36,981 nucleotides of DNA from a virus, in the IMG/VR virus record IMGVR_UViG_3300032242_003122, positions 1-36,981 of that record; one strand, given 5' to 3'. Numbering within the stretch: the stretch's first letter is position 1; every line of letters begins with the position of its first letter. This document shows, piece by piece, positions 7,001-32,590 of the stretch. The notes below the pieces were generated by a model that made no database searches, was not told the origin of the DNA, and saw only the letters and a program-made list of their open reading frames with translations. The translations under genes and the position numbers were made by a program.

Positions 7001-10000
7001 TTATAATGGGCATGTCACTCCCGTACTTGATACTGTAACCGTTTGCCACGTGTTTGGTTCAATAGTAAGTAAACCACCTGTTAAACTCTGAACTCTACCC
7101 GATATAGATCTGCCATTTGTAACATCATTAAATGTATAACAGTTACCTGCTACTATTGATCCTCCACTACTGCTACTAATTTTTATATTAAATACTGTGT
7201 TATAATCAGCATAGAAATTTCTAAACATTGTATATGTAGTATATGCACCAGTATCTGACTTATATAAACTAGATATAACTCCACTTCCTCCTGTAACTAC
7301 ATATACATATGAATTTGCAAATAAATATAATCCATTTGCTACACGAGTTGTTCTACCAGAATCAGAATATAATATTGATCCAACCGCTAAAGGTGCTCCC
7401 GTACTTCTATTTGTTGTAGCTATTGTATAGAAAACTTGTACCTGTGGGTTGGTACTATCTGTTGGATTTCCTCCCGGAGCTGCAAAAATAGCAATACTAT
7501 TAGTATTATCTCCAACCGTTCTTCTATTAAAAATAATACCTTTATTAAAAATTTCTCCATTACAATCAGTCCACCCTATTATATAAGTTCCGCTTGATAG
7601 TCCTCCACTATTTATATCTAAATAACTAACAGAATTTTCGCCTCTATATTCACCGGCCTGTGATGCAATAGTTTGACCAATTATATTAACAACCGATATA
7701 TTATAGGCTGGCCCATTTACAAATCTTAATAAATCTGATAATCCATCATAATTTCCTTCTATTGGAGCAGTGGTAACAAGTTGTGGACTAGTACAGCAAA
7801 TAGGAAATACATTTCTTTCTCCTATATAAGTATCACACCCTACTGGAGGGGCAATAAGTCTTGTTGTAGGTGTTCCACTTCCATATACCGTACTTGGACT
7901 TGGAGTAATAGTAATACTTGGAGTAATAGTAATACTTGGAGTAACAGTTATTGTTGGGGTAATGCTTGGTGTTACTGTTATAGTAGGGGTAACACTAATA
8001 GTTGGTGTTACCGTAATAGTAGGGGTAACACTTGGGGTTACAGTTATACTTGGAGTTACACTTACACTTGGAGTTACACTTATTGTAGGTGTTAGGGTTA
8101 TAGTTGGAGTAACCGTTATACTAGGAGTAAGACTAATAGTAGGTGTTACAGTTACACTTGGAGTTACACTAATAGTAGGTGTTGGTGTTAAACTAGGAGT
8201 AAGACTAATAGTAGGTGTTACAGTTACACTTGGAGTTACAGTTATTGTTGGGGTAACGCTAATACTTGGTGTTACGGTAATCGTAGGAGTAACGCTAATA
8301 CTAGGAGTTACGGTAATAGTAGGAGTAACACTTGGAGTTACAGTAATACTAGGAGTAACACTAATCGTAGGAGTTACAGTAACGCTTGGAGTAACACTTA
8401 TAGTAGGGGTTAAACTAGGTGTTACAGATATACTTGGAGTAATACTAATACTAGGAGTAACCGTTATAGTAGGGGTAATACTTGGAGTAATACTAATAGT
8501 AGGTGTTAAAGTAATAGTAGGAGTAACACTTATAGTAGGTGTAACTGTTGGAGTAACACTAATAGTAGGAGTAACTGTTATTGTTGGTGTAGGTGACGGT
8601 GTAACAGCAGGAGTTCTACTAGGAGTAGCGGTAACAGTAATAGTAGGAGTAATACTTGGTGTTACACTTATACTTGGTGTTATACTAGGAGTTACGGTAA
8701 TACTTGGAGTAACACTTATAGTTGGTGTAACACTAGGAGTAATACTTATAGTTGGTGTTATACTTGTAGTAATAGTTGGAGTAACACTTGGAGTTACAGT
8801 TATTGTTGGCGTAACAGTCGGTGTTACACTCGGAGTTAAACTAATAGTTGGGGTAATACTTGGAGTAGGAGTTGCCGTAGAAGTAACCGTTGGAGTAACA
8901 CTAATAGTAGGAGTAACTGTTATTGTTGGAGTAATACTTGGAGTAACAGTAACACTAGGGGTTATACTAATAGTTGGAGTTACAGTAACACTTGGAGTAA
9001 CACTAATAGTAGGGGTTAAACTAGGTATTGGGGTACCACTCGGAGTAATACTAATAGTAGGTGTTACCGTAGGAGTAATACTTGGAGTAACAGTAATAGT
9101 AGGAGTTACGGTAATAGTAGGAGTAATACTTGGAGTTACAGTAATAGTAGGAGTTATACTAGGTGTAAGACTTGGTGTAACTGTTGGTGTTTTACTTGGT
9201 GTTCTAGTAGGTGTTAATGTTGGTGTTGATGTTATGGTTGTTGTAATAGTAGGCGTTACACTTGGAGTAACAGTAATAGTAGGAGTAACACTTGGTGTAA
9301 CACTTGGAGTTACAGTTATTGTTGGCGTAATACTAATAGTTGTAGTAATACTAGGTGTAATACTTGGAGTTGGTGTTAGCGAAGGTGCTACCAACAACGT
9401 AAGATCATCGCATTTTCTACAAATATCTATTTTAACATATCTATAATCACTATATAAACCAGTTGTAGTTTTTACTCTATAAAGAGCCTCATAAGCGGCA
9501 ATCTGAGTATTAGTTATTCGGATAACAGTTGCAGAAGGAGTTTGCCATATAAATCCAGCTGAAGGCTGTACTATCTCATAAGAAGCTATTGAAATAGCTG
9601 GGTGAATAGTTGCTAAATTAATATCATAGTATCCACCATTACTAATAATATCCTGATCATAAAGTTTATAATATAACTGCTTAATACCGGGAACTTCTGG
9701 GAAAATATATGTGTATTCACCTGTTATTATTGTATATAAACCATTTATTGTAGTAACAAATCCTGGGCCTAAATCAGCAACCCATGAAGGAAGCTGAGAT
9801 GTTAAATAAGTTCTTACTAAAGGTACTTTACCATTTATGCTTGTAATTCCTTCTTCATAGAAAAAATTTCCGATATGAACACTTCCTGATGAGATATCAT
9901 AAAGATTGCCATTACCATCATCTATAATATAAAATAAAGAAGAAGAAATAACATATGAACCTGGTTTAACTCTATTTCCAAATAAAGCTTTTGGAATCCC

Positions 10001-10393
10001 AACAACTCTAACTTTATCTAGTGATTGAGTTGGATAATTTTCAATTAGTCCTTCATAAGTTTTTTGAGAATACCCAAAAGCATTTCTTAATCCTGTTTGA
10101 TTATCAAAATATGTGGATAAATTAAATGAACCAGATGAAACATTAGATCCACTATAATTAGCTTGATAGTATAATTGATTTATTGAATCGTATAGTATCT
10201 TATTAAAAGATCCATTACTAGTATCCGAACTATATGGATCAAAAAAACCTGGTATATTTTGTGCCGTATAAAACTTTATATCTGTACTGTTGTTAAAGTC
10301 ATCCGCATTAGAAACAGTATATGAATACTGTTTATTTAATGTGATAGGCGATAATACAACATCCCCGGATGAAAGTTTCTTAAGTACATACAT
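7001..10393 (-). CDS. Giant tail-fibre protein with a Thr/Pro tract of about 500 residues (1130 aa)
   Basis: The N-terminal part (1-330) resembles the 339 aa protein just upstream: a Y/F-x-KI-x-Y-x-SI-x2-L-x-Y phrase (FNKILYDSINQLYY) and a later IDDGNGNLYDISSGSVHIGN stretch, seen in phage tail proteins. Residues about 337-835 are almost only T, P, S, I and V in TPSITP and TPTITV units. The last 290 residues form a beta-rich C-terminal domain. The tract is probably extended and, being full of hydroxyl residues, could carry sugars (inference). The layout of an anchoring domain, long stalk and distal domain fits a fibre. It follows the 339 aa gene by nine bases. Confidence 0.78.
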   Translation of the reverse strand: MYVLKKLSSGDVVLSPITLNKQYSYTVSNADDFNNSTDIKFYTAQNIPGFFDPYSSDTSNGSFNKILYDSINQLYYQANYSGSNVSSGSFNLSTYFDNQTGLRNAFGYSQKTYEGLIENYPTQSLDKVRVVGIPKALFGNRVKPGSYVISSSLFYIIDDGNGNLYDISSGSVHIGNFFYEEGITSINGKVPLVRTYLTSQLPSWVADLGPGFVTTINGLYTIITGEYTYIFPEVPGIKQLYYKLYDQDIISNGGYYDINLATIHPAISIASYEIVQPSAGFIWQTPSATVIRITNTQIAAYEALYRVKTTTGLYSDYRYVKIDICRKCDDLTLLVAPSLTPTPSITPSITTTISITPTITVTPSVTPSVTPTITVTPSVTPTITTTITSTPTLTPTRTPSKTPTVTPSLTPSITPTITVTPSITPTITVTPTITVTPSITPTVTPTISITPSGTPIPSLTPTISVTPSVTVTPTISITPSVTVTPSITPTITVTPTISVTPTVTSTATPTPSITPTISLTPSVTPTVTPTITVTPSVTPTITTSITPTISITPSVTPTISVTPSITVTPSITPSISVTPSITPTITVTATPSRTPAVTPSPTPTITVTPTISVTPTVTPTISVTPTITLTPTISITPSITPTITVTPSISITPSISVTPSLTPTISVTPSVTVTPTISVTPSITVTPSVTPTITVTPSISVTPTITVTPSISVTPTITVTPSVTVTPTISLTPSLTPTPTISVTPSVTVTPTISLTPSITVTPTITLTPTISVTPSVSVTPSITVTPSVTPTITVTPTISVTPTITVTPSITPTITVTPSITITPSITITPSPSTVYGSGTPTTRLIAPPVGCDTYIGERNVFPICCTSPQLVTTAPIEGNYDGLSDLLRFVNGPAYNISVVNIIGQTIASQAGEYRGENSVSYLDINSGGLSSGTYIIGWTDCNGEIFNKGIIFNRRTVGDNTNSIAIFAAPGGNPTDSTNPQVQVFYTIATTNRSTGAPLAVGSILYSDSGRTTRVANGLYLFANSYVYVVTGGSGVISSLYKSDTGAYTTYTMFRNFYADYNTVFNIKISSSSGGSIVAGNCYTFNDVTNGRSISGRVQSLTGGLLTIEPNTWQTVTVSSTGVTCPL
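7891..9384 (-). repeat. Tandem coding repeat, about 1.5 kb, encoding TPSITP/TPTITV units
   Basis: The + strand shows phrases like GGAGTAACACTTATAGTA repeating with an 18-base period (sometimes 12). Third positions vary freely (GGA, GGT, GGG; ACA, ACT), while the coded amino acids stay within T, P, S, I and V. This suggests old expansion and selection for the protein composition, not a fresh slippage array. Confidence 0.85.
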
Positions 10394-26748: not shown

Positions 26749-27156
26749 CTACAAAACAAACCTAATGGCATTATCTATTGCATCCATTATTGCAGTTATA
26801 TTTCTATTAACTTGTATATTTTTCTCTTTTATGATTTGTTCAGAAGCATCCAAAGGAAGTGATACTTTACCATCTTCAAACTGTAGTTTTTCTATAAACA
26901 AAGGTACAAAATTAAGCACTGCTGCATTAGCTTGTCTTGGATCTAATCCATCCTCATCTACTAAACTTTTAACTAATTCAGTTCCCTCTGGGCCTAATCC
27001 TTTACCTGCTTGAGCAATAAACATAGATTCAATTTCATCTCTGGTGTCATTTCCTTCAGAATCATCATAGTTGTCAGCAGGATTTTCATCGTACTTCTCC
27101 CAATAACTTTCTTCACCTTCTTTTATGATTGAATCCAATATTTTATAAAGTCTCAT
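26749..27156 (-). CDS. Tagged acidic protein (135 aa)
   Basis: An earlier ATG at 27174 exists, but the start at 27156 is chosen. From there the protein opens MRLYKILDSIIKEGEESYWE, aligning with the four other tags (E13 followed by G, a good T4 prohead-protease-like context), and it places the proposed late element 23 bases away, as at other units, instead of 5. After the tag come an acidic segment (ENPADNYDDSEGNDTRDEIE) and helices (FIAQAGKGLGPEGTELVKSL, VNRNITAIMDAIDNAIRFVL). Acidic phage head proteins of this size occur, but no family is recognised. Confidence 0.65.
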   Translation of the reverse strand: MRLYKILDSIIKEGEESYWEKYDENPADNYDDSEGNDTRDEIESMFIAQAGKGLGPEGTELVKSLVDEDGLDPRQANAAVLNFVPLFIEKLQFEDGKVSLPLDASEQIIKEKNIQVNRNITAIMDAIDNAIRFVL

Positions 27157-27179
27157 AGTATTTCTTGATAGCATTTGCT

Positions 27180-27971: not shown

Positions 27972-29558
27972 TTAAATTATTCTATAATTAGCCCCCTCTG
28001 GTATCTTTAAAGTACTTTTAATTTCTTCTGGTGCTATAACTAAAACGTTATCATAGGTTCCAATTTTTTTAGGAAGTTCTTTAAGATTTTCACCTCCTCT
28101 TAATGATAAAACTCGAACTTCACCAAGCTTACTTGCAAATTCATTAAGAGATTCTCCTGTAAAATTAAGACTCAATCTGTTTGGATCTAATTCGCTTATA
28201 TCTAAATTATCTAGACTTTCTTGGTCAATTTTGTATATGTAGATATTTTCAACATTACCTGTTATTTTCTTAATACTTATCTTAGGTCCATCATTAACTC
28301 CATGTATATCCAACTCTTCGGTAGTTACATTCTCTATTAATTCCAATTTACCACATTTGGTTACTGAAATTTCTTTACATTTAAGATTAGAAATCTTGGT
28401 AAGATTATCTAGTTCTCTTGCAGTAAATTTATCGGAGGTTTCTATGTTGGAAATTTCTGAAAGATTACTTAAATTAATAACTTGTATTTCCGAATTTGTG
28501 ATTATGTTTTTTACTATCTTAACATCTCTTGGATTTATATTTTGGTCATCTAGTGAATAGAACCATATGCGAGTCATTTTTCCACCTTCATCTTTTTCGT
28601 ATTCTAATTTATCAAATGTTTCTTGACTTATAAGTTCTACTTTTCTTCTCACCCTTATCTCATCATCTCCACCATCATTATACAGCTTTCTGTTACGCTT
28701 ATATCTACCTTCTTTATCTGGTTGGGCATCTCTGAACATATCTTGTACAGTTTCAACAAATCCTGGGGCAGTACCGTATTCTCTTTCTTCAACGACATAA
28801 ATGTAGTCCTTGTAGTTTGTTGTGCTAATGAATGGTTTTATTAAAACCCTAGCTATTGGACGTTGGATATTAGTATCATCTTCATTTATTAGATATGCGA
28901 TAAGTGTACCCTCCTTAATATCACAATGGACAAATTTCTGACCATTTCCTGATGTCAATGACATGCAACTAGTCCAGCTACGACCTGAAGTCATACCAGC
29001 AATATCATAATTTGCCTTGGAGATAACAATATATCTTTTCTTGTTTTTTCCACTTATTGCAGTCTTTCTTGCTTCATCTTCTTGAAATGCTCTCTTTGCA
29101 TAATCAAACCTTTGAGCAATCCTCAATGATTCCTCACCACCCCTTTTTTTAAGTTTATCTGATACCATGTTAAGCATCTTACCAATACCGACTTTCTGTC
29201 CTCTTGAATCAGTTGCTAAACCATCTAGGTAATCTTTTCCATTGTTTATTTGAAATGTTTTACCAAATAATTCCTTGATTAGATCTTGATTGTTGTAAAG
29301 AGTTAGCTCTAAACCATCAAAGGTTTCAGATTTAAAATCTTCTGGCTTTGCAGTACCCTCTTTCTCGTAGTTAAAATATATTCTTTCTCCACGCTTAGAC
29401 TCTTTACCGGTATATGTGCTTTGTTGCTTTAGCTTAGCCATTAGATCATTGATAACCTTTTCGGTTTCAGGTCTTCTGATATGTTCAGCATAATCTTTGG
29501 CTATAGTTAACTCTAAGGCTTCGTATACGTTAGACTCTAAGATTGAAAATAATTTCAT
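27972..29558 (-). CDS. Tagged protein with SGRSWTSCM motif and leucine-rich tail (528 aa)
   Basis: An in-frame ATG 20 codons upstream (29618) is rejected, because the stretch between contains the proposed divergent promoters. From 29558 it reads MKLFSILESNVYEALELTIA, with the tag ending at E13 before A. Residues about 60-200 contain YFNYEKEGTAKPEDF, KNKKRYIVISKANYDIAG and TSGRSWTSCMSL. Then come GTLIAYLINEDD and RPIARVLIKPF, a pattern I know from uncharacterised marine phage proteins. From about 350 it has leucine-rich-repeat-like strands (VINLSNLSEISNIETSDK, LDNLTKISNLKCKEISVTKC). The conserved Cys within WTSCM suggests an active site, but none is known. It may be delivered with the DNA (see tag). 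Confidence 0.72.
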   Translation of the reverse strand: MKLFSILESNVYEALELTIAKDYAEHIRRPETEKVINDLMAKLKQQSTYTGKESKRGERIYFNYEKEGTAKPEDFKSETFDGLELTLYNNQDLIKELFGKTFQINNGKDYLDGLATDSRGQKVGIGKMLNMVSDKLKKRGGEESLRIAQRFDYAKRAFQEDEARKTAISGKNKKRYIVISKANYDIAGMTSGRSWTSCMSLTSGNGQKFVHCDIKEGTLIAYLINEDDTNIQRPIARVLIKPFISTTNYKDYIYVVEEREYGTAPGFVETVQDMFRDAQPDKEGRYKRNRKLYNDGGDDEIRVRRKVELISQETFDKLEYEKDEGGKMTRIWFYSLDDQNINPRDVKIVKNIITNSEIQVINLSNLSEISNIETSDKFTARELDNLTKISNLKCKEISVTKCGKLELIENVTTEELDIHGVNDGPKISIKKITGNVENIYIYKIDQESLDNLDISELDPNRLSLNFTGESLNEFASKLGEVRVLSLRGGENLKELPKKIGTYDNVLVIAPEEIKSTLKIPEGANYRII

Positions 29559-29567
29559 AAAAAAATA

Positions 29568-29599
29568 TTTGCTTTTAATAATAAATATAAATATGTTTG
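29568..29599 (+). promoter_or_regulatory. Bacteroides-type promoter for the + genes at 29628
   Basis: TTTG (29568-29571), a 20-base spacer, then TATGTTTG (29592-29599): a full match to the known TTTG-(19-21)-TAnnTTTG consensus. The leader to the ATG at 29628 would be about 22 bases. It overlaps the proposed late element of the divergent gene. Confidence 0.6.
29586..29594 (-). promoter_or_regulatory. Proposed late-promoter element ATATTTATA
   Basis: ATATTTATA on the - strand, 27 bases before the ATG at 29558. It overlaps the -7 box of the + promoter by three bases. Confidence 0.45.
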
Positions 29600-29627
29600 T
29601 AAAATAAACATAAAACATTAAAATACT

Positions 29628-30172: not shown

Positions 30173-30323
30173 TATAGATCAGTCTATTGAAGAAAACTAT
30201 GTTGATAAGAAATCAGGTGATATAATAAAGTGGTACATCAATACCTACTACATTTATCAGGAGAATGAATTTATAAAGTCAATTAGAGAAGAAGAACGAG
30301 CTTTTATACATCTAGACACTTAA
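30141..30323 (+). CDS. Small early protein, unknown (60 aa)
   Basis: Reads MKTILERLVANIDQSIEENY, then DIIKWYINTYYIYQENEFIK. The first third overlaps the C-terminal coding of the preceding gene by 32 bases, and the last 20 bases overlap the 3' end of the convergent kinase-like gene. The length and composition are typical of phage early genes. With this much overlap it could be chance, but the start position and helical sequence favour a real gene. Confidence 0.45.
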   Translation: MKTILERLVANIDQSIEENYVDKKSGDIIKWYINTYYIYQENEFIKSIREEERAFIHLDT

Positions 30324-30852
30324 CTACTTTATTTTGGCCATACCCAAACTGTTTTGGATGAAAGTCAATTTTAGTATGCCAAGGAAGTAATTTATCAACT
30401 GCAGTAACGTTATCAACTAGTTTAATAAACAAATCTGATATATCAGGATTGACTTCATTAATTTTATCTATTATCTCGTCATACCTAACTTCATTGTATC
30501 TTGATACTTTTATTGCCCCATACACCCCACCATTAAATCCTGCCTTAGTTAGAGCTAATCCAAGTTTTAGATAATCCTCTAAGAAGTTTCTTGTATCAAG
30601 CTTTTCAAGTATAACATAAGCATCTTTTGGATTTTCTTTGGTTAATCCCTCTCTGTAAACGATTGGAAATAGATCTGGATGTTTCTTAAACATTGGAACC
30701 CATTTAGCTACATACTTAGCCTCACCCACCTTGATAACCTTAGTTGGATCGTTAGATGGATAAACAACATGTTCCATTCCTTGGCCTAGTATTTCCTTGT
30801 CCCTGGTTCGTAGCTCTAAAATAATTTCTTCAAGTATATCTGTTAGTTTCAT
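30304..30852 (-). CDS. Tagged kinase-like protein (182 aa)
   Basis: The start at 30852 is used because it gives the tag MKLTDILEEIILELR and lies 4 bases after the upstream stop. The rest reads as a compact kinase-like fold: a glycine-loop-like ILGQGMEHVVYP, the lysine strand KVIKVGEAKYVAKW, a hinge strand YVILEKLD, and near the end IDFHPKQFGY, which stands where the catalytic loop D-x-H-x4-N lies, then CLDV where the metal-binding D is expected. It is shorter than standard kinases, and the loop's usual N is replaced. I know related proteins in marine phages. Substrate unknown, possibly a host factor if it is injected. Confidence 0.68.
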   Translation of the reverse strand: MKLTDILEEIILELRTRDKEILGQGMEHVVYPSNDPTKVIKVGEAKYVAKWVPMFKKHPDLFPIVYREGLTKENPKDAYVILEKLDTRNFLEDYLKLGLALTKAGFNGGVYGAIKVSRYNEVRYDEIIDKINEVNPDISDLFIKLVDNVTAVDKLLPWHTKIDFHPKQFGYGQNKVVKCLDV

Positions 30853-30856
30853 AATA

Positions 30857-32590
30857 TCACCAAGCCCTGCACGACCAAAAACGAGCAGATGTACGAGGAC
30901 CTGGACTATCACAATGATGTCTGGCCCTAAAAGACTTTCTATGGGAAGGTATATTTTTCTTAATCTTCATATTAGGATCTCCAAAGTTTACTTTAACTAC
31001 CCTTCCTGCTGGATTTTTGACATAGACCGACCTTTTCTTTGGACCATCTGGTGTTAGGAAAGGTTTCCCCAACTGTACCTTACGACCATGATATTCAGCC
31101 TCAGTAATACAATTACAATTAGATTCAGTTATTAGTGTAGCATATTCACGAATAAACTGCTTGAAGTCTTGGAATTCCTGTATCGTCTCAACGTCATACT
31201 CATCGATTTCTTGATCAACAATACCTAGAATAACTTTAGGATTAGTTTTGTTAGCCTTAGCAAACATTAAACGGGTGTTGCCACCTACTAAGTAGTACTT
31301 ATTTGGCTCATACTGAAGTATTAAGGCAGGAGGAGTTTCTTCTGCATCTTCAATGCTTTTCCAGTCCTTACCGTAGTTATTGGCTAGTTTTATAGCTTCT
31401 TCTTTGTCTTTAATATAATATGAGTCAGTATTCTCTAAACGAGACCACATTTTGTCATCTAATGTAATTTCTTTACCATTCAATAAAGAATCACGGATAT
31501 CATCATAAGGTATGTCTAAATCATCTGAAGTACGTTCTATTTCCTCTGATTCAGATTCTATGTAGGATTCACGATCAGACATGTCAGCCCCTTCCTTTAA
31601 ACCAGACTTAAAGCCACATAGTGAAATAAATTCTTTTACATCAAGCTTTATACCTTCAGCCTTTAGCTGTTTGATCTGCTTCTTGGCTAATTCCTTTCTG
31701 TTAGTGATATCCTTAACTCCTCTGACGATCTCAGCGATTCCTTCGATCATATCTCTTTCGTCCTCCGGAGTTATATCATTCTCATTAATTGGAACGCAAT
31801 TAGGAACTTGTTTTCCATTTTTAATTTTACCTCCAACTTGTTTGTAGCCATCCCAGCAATCTTCGCATAATGCGTTCATTTCGCCTTCATTACATTTCTT
31901 CCAGGTTCCACCTTTGGATTTGTAGTTCTTTGCGGCCCAACCATTCGCATAAGCACTTGGATATACGTCAAACTTAGATTTAGCTAATGCTTTTGATGCT
32001 GACCACTTACCGGGATCATTTGGACAGTTTCTTTCTAAAAATAGATTTAGTTTTTCTTCTAGATTCATTTCTTCATTCTTTTTTTTTCCTGCACAATGTG
32101 CTTTTTGAGAAAATCCTTTTGGATGACTGCAGTCTATACTATTTTTGTATTTCTGACTCCAGCTTTCATTCTTTGGTTTTGTAGAAACATTTATGGGTGC
32201 CTTGCCTTGCCCAGCACTATCTTTGCCTCCTCTGTCAGCAGCGTTTTGTGCTTTTCTCTTTCTTTCAGTGGCACTCTCCTTTTCTTTCTTGCTCATGGTA
32301 GCAGCTTTGGCAGCAGGAACACACTTAGCGTATCCTTTCTTTTCACCTGAAGTTCCACAAGGGGGATGCTTGCCATTAACTTTTTTTCCAATGTTTACCC
32401 ACTTTTCTTTAAACCATTTACGAAGGTCTTCATTAACTGGAGTATTATCATGTCCACACTTATGACAAGTATAGGTATCAGTACCACCATCTGCTATATT
32501 CCACTGCCAGCCACACTTATCGCATGTAACTATACCGTCTTTTATACTCTCGTTAAGTATTATGTCAGAAAGTATGTCTGTTAACTTCAT
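30857..32590 (-). CDS. Tagged multidomain protein: zinc ribbon, repeated Cys modules, ParB-like domain, FRARHxC tail (577 aa)
   Basis: After the tag (MKLTDILSDIILNES, candidate cut after E14) come a zinc ribbon (C23-x2-C26, C42-x2-C45), a DUF5872-like stretch (KWVNIGKKVNGKHPPCGTSG to VPAAKAATMSKKEKE), a second related stretch (LNLFLERNCPNDPGKWSASK to KSKGGTWKK), then EDCWDGYKQVGGKIKNGKQV. About 340-460 has a ParB/Srx-like pattern ending YYLVGGNTRLMFAKA. The last 79 residues (499-577) form a conserved phage tail (RVVKVNFGDPNMKIKK, SFRARHHC, ARFWSCRAW). Possible protease cuts LITE-S and CITE-A (after E489 and E497) separate the ParB-like part from the tail. A DNA- or partner-binding role is inferred. 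Confidence 0.72.
   Translation of the reverse strand: MKLTDILSDIILNESIKDGIVTCDKCGWQWNIADGGTDTYTCHKCGHDNTPVNEDLRKWFKEKWVNIGKKVNGKHPPCGTSGEKKGYAKCVPAAKAATMSKKEKESATERKRKAQNAADRGGKDSAGQGKAPINVSTKPKNESWSQKYKNSIDCSHPKGFSQKAHCAGKKKNEEMNLEEKLNLFLERNCPNDPGKWSASKALAKSKFDVYPSAYANGWAAKNYKSKGGTWKKCNEGEMNALCEDCWDGYKQVGGKIKNGKQVPNCVPINENDITPEDERDMIEGIAEIVRGVKDITNRKELAKKQIKQLKAEGIKLDVKEFISLCGFKSGLKEGADMSDRESYIESESEEIERTSDDLDIPYDDIRDSLLNGKEITLDDKMWSRLENTDSYYIKDKEEAIKLANNYGKDWKSIEDAEETPPALILQYEPNKYYLVGGNTRLMFAKANKTNPKVILGIVDQEIDEYDVETIQEFQDFKQFIREYATLITESNCNCITEAEYHGRKVQLGKPFLTPDGPKKRSVYVKNPAGRVVKVNFGDPNMKIKKNIPSHRKSFRARHHCDSPGPRTSARFWSCRAW

Follow-up and report, generated by a model that had tools for sequence, protein, structure and literature searches.

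The closest described counterparts of the protein analyzed here are the T4 proteins IPI, IPII, IPIII and Alt, which are cut by gp21 and whose N-terminal tag ends in a hydrophobic-x-E motif. The gp21-type site is L/I-x-E (PMC9026906), and the known cuts by S77 (gp21-type) proteases remove N-terminal propeptides, trim the C-terminal ends of the protease and of Alt, or break up the scaffold (PMC9026906, PMC10052503). Head proteins of phiKZ and SPN3US are cut by a Glu-directed prohead protease at several sites per protein, and these sites remove N-terminal propeptides. The polyvalent proteins of phages and plasmids are multi-domain chains for which processing into parts has been proposed, by their own metallopeptidase domain (Iyer et al. 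2017; PMC5512222). A further point of comparison is the cyanophage family T4-GC119 (PHROG 727/9737), encoded near gp16 and gp17, for which no description of processing was found in the literature searched. The known position of the capsid-targeting segment (CTS) is N-terminal. Many eukaryotic viruses use polyproteins to obtain several proteins from one gene; for T4-type phages we did not find an S77-cut cargo polyprotein with an internal tag, or an internal CTS, described in the literature searched, a search that left much subscription literature outside its scope.

The DNA under study (the window, 36,981 nucleotides, from IMG/VR virus record IMGVR_UViG_3300032242_003122) encodes a modular protein of 577 amino acids on its minus strand, with the ATG at 32590 and the stop at 30857. 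The original prediction had placed this open reading frame at 30857–32590 and had raised the possibility of a polyprotein cut during head maturation; the frame is real, and is here assigned to the minus strand. From the ORF call, the family matches and the homologues, and with a probability of roughly 70%, we read its product as a fused precursor of internal-head cargo that would contain an internal CTS and be cut by the prohead protease, the cleavage being an inference from sequence. As in the T4 proteins, its N-terminal tag ends in hydrophobic-x-E, and its homologues occur in phages that have an S77 protease and the Gp23 shell protein; free-standing homologues of its C-terminal tail domain start like IPI (MKTFKEF) or like IPIII (MKTY). 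Unlike the T4 internal proteins, it has several modules per chain, a second, internal CTS-like segment and border sites between modules, and no sequence similarity to their mature parts was found. Its sites separate modules that also exist as genes, whereas those of the phiKZ and SPN3US proteins remove propeptides, and it differs from the polyvalent proteins in that no metallopeptidase domain was found and a DdrB-type ParB domain is unconfirmed. With the T4-GC119 family it has in common the DUF5872, SIDC, PSAY and CWxGY modules as well as module borders that carry xE/[GAS] (in motifs, a slash marks a junction or proposed cut), but the T4-GC119 members examined mostly end in an AAWTRK...RAWNC module and lack its tail.

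The chain opens with a capsid-targeting-like tag (residues 1–14, MKLTDILSDIILNE/S, 32549–32590; this and all following window coordinates are on the minus strand unless noted), paralleled by the start of homologue L002 (MTKLKDILKE) and by the near-identical tag of the next gene, MKLTDILEEIILE. That gene (188 residues, 30304–30870) overlaps the end of the 577-residue gene and has a weak Kinase-PolyVal match below the Pfam cut-off. The tag is followed by a zinc ribbon (residues 20–48, CDKCGWQW...CHKCG, 32447–32533; DUF5817, below cut-off) and by a DUF5872 module (residues 50–138, 32177–32443; PF19197), the family scoring above the Pfam cut-off in two stretches of the protein. A WSxKYKxSIDC module (residues 143–171, 32078–32164) and the PSAY module, a second DUF5872-like part with the tag-like start MNLEEKLNLFLE (residues 172–233, 31892–32077), are defined by alignment and by their separate-gene counterparts. 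The CWDGYKQVG module (residues 244–267, 31790–31861), with LCE just before it, rests on alignment and a site scan. Then come a predicted helical segment that ends at LKE/G (residues 272–332, the E at 333, 31595–31777; low-confidence model and site scan), a YLVGGNTRL segment (residues 334–463, 31202–31591) and the putative internal CTS (residues 474–489, DFKQFIREYATLITE/S, 31124–31171), which was identified by alignment and a tag profile and is helical in the low-confidence model. In the alignment the spacer SNCNCITE (residues 490–497, 31100–31123) lies between two conserved cut sites. The C-terminal tail domain (residues 498–577, AEYHGRKV...FRARHHC...FWSCRAW, 30860–31099) is delimited by its junctions, a fold model and a match to PHROG 7595 that runs to the last position of the profile (7–96 of 96). 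Residues 43–307 match PHROG 727 (E=3.7e-15), with tblastn matches as well.

The tag, zinc ribbon, DUF5872-like parts, CWDGYKQVG part and tail of the original prediction were thus recovered, but its ParB-like part (about 334–463) was not: GGNTRL is present, and nothing significant was found in Pfam, PHROGs, NCBIfam or a PDB sequence search. One pattern scan of viral contigs returned no relatives of this segment. No metallopeptidase (MPTase) or other PolyVal effector domain scored above cut-off in the protein with Pfam or NCBIfam. The full-length AlphaFold model was poor (pLDDT 40) and therefore unusable. Direct identity with a head maturation protease, raised by a weak match of residues 461–524 to PHROG 7478, was rejected, as the profile was empty in 40 related records and in controls.

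Modules of the protein occur elsewhere, in the T4-like contigs L158, L151 and L188, as separate adjacent genes that open with CTS-like tags. In record L158, consecutive overlapping genes between terminase-like genes encode the tail (start MKTFREF...LQE/AEYQG), the PSAY module (MKTYKEIKEA...), DUF5872 (MTYDEFREDLRKWF) and, in addition, another protein with a tag (MRSFKEYILED). The same order is found in L151, where CWxGY is joined to PSAY and DUF5872 has a CTS-like-tagged gene of its own, and in L188 a tail gene is followed by a separate gene for the SIDC module (MKTNEILGE/KWSAKYKRSIDC). Fused versions vary: in L232, an S77-positive record, the modules are reordered, with the zinc ribbon between CWxGY and the tail, and in L002 the stretch from PSAY to the internal tag is occupied by another module, flanked by VNE/A and LGE/N.

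The closest homologues adjoin the large terminase gene, lying between terminase and portal in L002 and L101–L107, and in several records genes for S77, a scaffold-like protein and Gp23 come after them; six records that carry close homologues contain an S77 gene. No S77 or MCP gene was identified in the 37-kb window, itself a genome fragment. By its baseplate wedge protein, the nearest cultured relative is Flavobacterium phage immuto (42%), in which terminase, Gp20, S77 and Gp23 stand in the same order. Cyanophage relatives also lie near terminase genes, and one of them, SSCSM1_29 of Synechococcus phage S-SCSM1, which consists of such modules but lacks the tail, carries the annotation 'virion protein'; the study of that genome identified virion proteins by mass spectrometry (PMC9602691). 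In a related record, a 946-residue ORF (L104:2636–5476, minus) fuses a scaffold-like (gp22-type) N-terminus in frame to a Gp23 major capsid protein and is rich in hydrophobic-x-E sites. Within the window, similar tags (MKLQSILEDL, MRLYKILDSII, MKLFSILES, MKLTDILEEII) start the genes at 842–1141, 26749–27174, 27972–29618 and 30304–30870, and the stretch from 26.7 to 32.6 kb resembles a gene island for tagged cargo. Elsewhere in the window, a 1130-residue protein (7001–10393) has a long TPTITVTPS-type repeat, and a 494-residue open frame runs through this repeat on the opposite strand (7962–9446, plus).

Separate genes bear directly on the alternative that survives best, although we still hold it to be unlikely: S77 cutting would leave one retained product and no multi-part polyprotein, either because residues 1–497 are a very long propeptide, of the kind seen in phiKZ-like phages, and the tail is kept, or because the tail is itself a C-terminal propeptide, like that of T4 Alt, and the N-terminal part is kept. 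Precedents exist, since most mapped cuts in SPN3US remove N-terminal propeptides, some of 111–254 residues and cut several times (PMC10052503), and T4 Alt is processed at its N- as well as its C-terminal end (PMC9026906); in free-standing tail genes, moreover, only the CTS precedes the tail. However, the upstream modules look like cargo, because they occur as separate tagged genes and because a tail-less modular relative carries a virion-protein annotation.

The cut sites put forward originally, ILNE/S (E14), LITE/S (E489) and CITE/A (E497), are found at these residues, and a lack of conservation among homologues, which would have refuted them, was not seen in an alignment of 13 homologues. 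E489, C492, C494, E497 and A498 are invariant in all 13, in a linker (468–497) that is otherwise variable except for Y483 and for F476 and F479 of the CTS-like segment, both invariant as well; A498-E499-Y500 follows. At both linker sites P3 is hydrophobic (I or L at 487; I, L, V or M at 495), P2 varies (T, S or A at 488; T, L or Y at 496) and P1' is S or A. Judged from the alignment, this is the pattern of variation expected of a gp21-type site. Several of the 13 sequences are near-identical, so the number of independent lineages is smaller. E489 is restricted to close homologues, and L232 and L312 have one site (INE/A). Further hydrophobic-x-E sites, unnoticed in the original prediction, lie at module borders (54, VNE/D; 243, LCE/D; 270, INE/N; 333, LKE/G); P1' at the first three is D or N, unlike the T4 sites.

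Residues 474–497 resemble the N-terminal CTS and cut site of free-standing tail genes, which in T4-like phages start MKKFKQYIDEG...LTE/AEYQG or MKTFKEFTEPCCDDCYDHELQE/AEYQG. The T4 tags taken from AF158101 are MKTYQEFIAE/A in IPIII and MKTFKEFTSTTTPVSTITE/A in IPI, with cut positions set by the L/I-x-E rule and by propeptide lengths of 10–19 residues (PMC9026906). A CTS profile made from 22 non-redundant tags and scanned over the 577-residue protein has its maximum at residues 475–482 (DFKQFIRE; score 13.1, next 8.8). As high a score was reached by 14 of 387,035 background 8-mers, and the peak has P = 0.015 against whole-protein shuffles. In close relatives the corresponding segments get only modest profile scores, and those of L003 and L006 poor ones. 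As homologues L003–L019 start at MNEDL or MKEDL without an N-terminal tag, the internal segment would have to serve alone in them. CTS-like segments also stand right before the tail inside other long ORFs (L122, L127, L301, L312, L337), with about 850 residues upstream in L122 and L127; these two have the junction EWGIFPSQITE/AEHQG in common with the free-standing gene in L129.

A second alternative is that gene fusion left the sites behind as relics in a protein that is no longer packaged, or in which they are buried, and that works uncut. Gene fusion would account for the presence of the sites, and close homologues without the N-terminal tag fit such a history. Relics should decay, however, and E489 and E497 are invariant in an otherwise variable linker, with hydrophobic-x-E before the tail kept behind several different upstream sequences; we consider this explanation improbable.

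The 80-residue tail domain is found C-terminal to many unrelated upstream sequences, and its junctions were compared between records with and without a gene for an S77 protease (PF03420). In 11 of 11 distinct junctions from S77-positive records, an E with a hydrophobic P3 immediately precedes the tail, versus hydrophobic-x-E in 1 of 16 junctions from S77-negative records that are large or complete (the exception being L174, VHE/A; Fisher P = 9e-7). The Fisher test ignores shared ancestry, and it overstates significance because homologous sequences are not independent. The S77-positive set comprises cultured phages of Pelagibacter, Methylophilales and Flavobacterium, Phage C48C1 and environmental phages. 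Where S77 is absent, the position just before the tail mostly holds A, S, G or Met and not E. Met directly precedes the tail in phages of the CRP-902 and Kolga type (M/ATYKGKSV, M/AKYQGRTV). Judging by their sequences, some free-standing tails begin exactly where the proposed cut would leave the tail. An additional sample from genome contigs again falls into these two classes, with hydrophobic-x-E in 19 of 45 distinct junctions and the rest including M/A.YxGK, and the contig scan gave more tail-after-Met cases, several of them from Pelagibacter-lineage contigs.

The fold model of the tail (pLDDT 82) has no convincing match in the PDB, and its good BFVD matches are homologues. When long tail proteins, the majority of them from the non-S77 group, were scanned against Pfam, only DUF5824 exceeded the cut-off, in two. 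A DUF2213 protease, sought in other records, was found only in Vibrio phage 1.052.A; there the DUF2213 protein (L193:3962–5347), encoded between genes for head morphogenesis and the capsid, contains the tail domain close to its N-terminus. The BFVD matches of the tail include a protein named XkdF. Because of this match and the DUF2213 context, the tail domain of non-T4 phages may be tied to another head protease. In Melnitz (L190:3342–5294) a CTS-like start is followed by a GRxNPPTxGH nucleotidyltransferase-like motif and, at the C-terminus, by the tail domain; HTVC008M (L084:3133–4923) has such a start and motif.

In the wider family, border sites were counted in 49 non-redundant multi-module proteins, with the motif required within 14 residues before a module start. 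[LIVMF]xE[AGS] occurs at 43 of 149 borders, compared with 11.4±3.2 at random places and 10.7±2.9 in local shuffles. D, K, shifted and polar-P3 control motifs were not enriched at borders over local shuffles; the reversed motif was also raised somewhat (24 versus about 10). The motif density is 6.3 per 1000 residues in family proteins versus 4.5 in other proteins of the same loci, among which scaffold-like (gp22) proteins, expected gp21 substrates, rank among the highest. By eye and without a statistic, the second C-terminal module of cyanophage homologues reads xxE/[GVSA]AAW if fused and MAKTPAW if free, the fused copies having E at P1 in most and a hydrophobic P3 in many, not all. In a 596-residue tail protein of L312 and in L118:197–1921 (plus), parts are separated by repeated linkers like ESVNE/[AST], which suggests that other module families share the border-site pattern. 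The protein is Glu-rich, with 17 [LIVMFC]xE places, and the modelled first strand of the tail includes E497, but the view that the motifs arose by chance and that E497 is a structural residue of the tail can hardly be upheld against the mostly A, S, G or Met found there without S77 and the unenriched control motifs.

Under the fused-precursor reading, which we prefer, formerly separate cargo genes of a T4-type prohead core would have been joined head-to-tail into one precursor. The N-terminal CTS and the second one at 474–489 would bring it into the prohead core, where the S77 protease would cut after hydrophobic-x-E at 14 and at 489 and/or 497; the weaker border sites at 54, 243, 270 and 333 may be cut too. 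Cutting would remove the tag and free the 80-residue domain from A498 as a separate head protein, and the other modules would stay in the head or exit as fragments. Entry by way of the tags, cleavage by S77, the retention of pieces, their ejection into the host and what the modules do are all inferred. Conserved sites, the S77 link, separate tagged genes and the head-gene context lend support to the polyprotein of the original prediction; release of the tail is the better-supported part, the split into several retained products is weaker, and cleavage is not demonstrated.

The chances seem to us evenly balanced that T4-like phages of marine and freshwater bacteria make true cargo polyproteins, with S77 sites, and sometimes internal capsid-targeting segments, between small domains, so that one gene would supply several proteins first to the head and later to the host, with recombination at the tag and cut cassettes exchanging the domains. 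A role in head packaging and processing is suggested for the uncharacterized DUF5872 and PHROGs 727, 7595, 9737 and 23735, and hydrophobic-x-E at module borders offers a simple search handle for head cargo in uncultured phages. The internal CTS-like segments, if real, would mean that targeting need not be N-terminal. If the broader proposal is true, the role of the prohead protease would go beyond tag removal, with several injected proteins obtained per gene.
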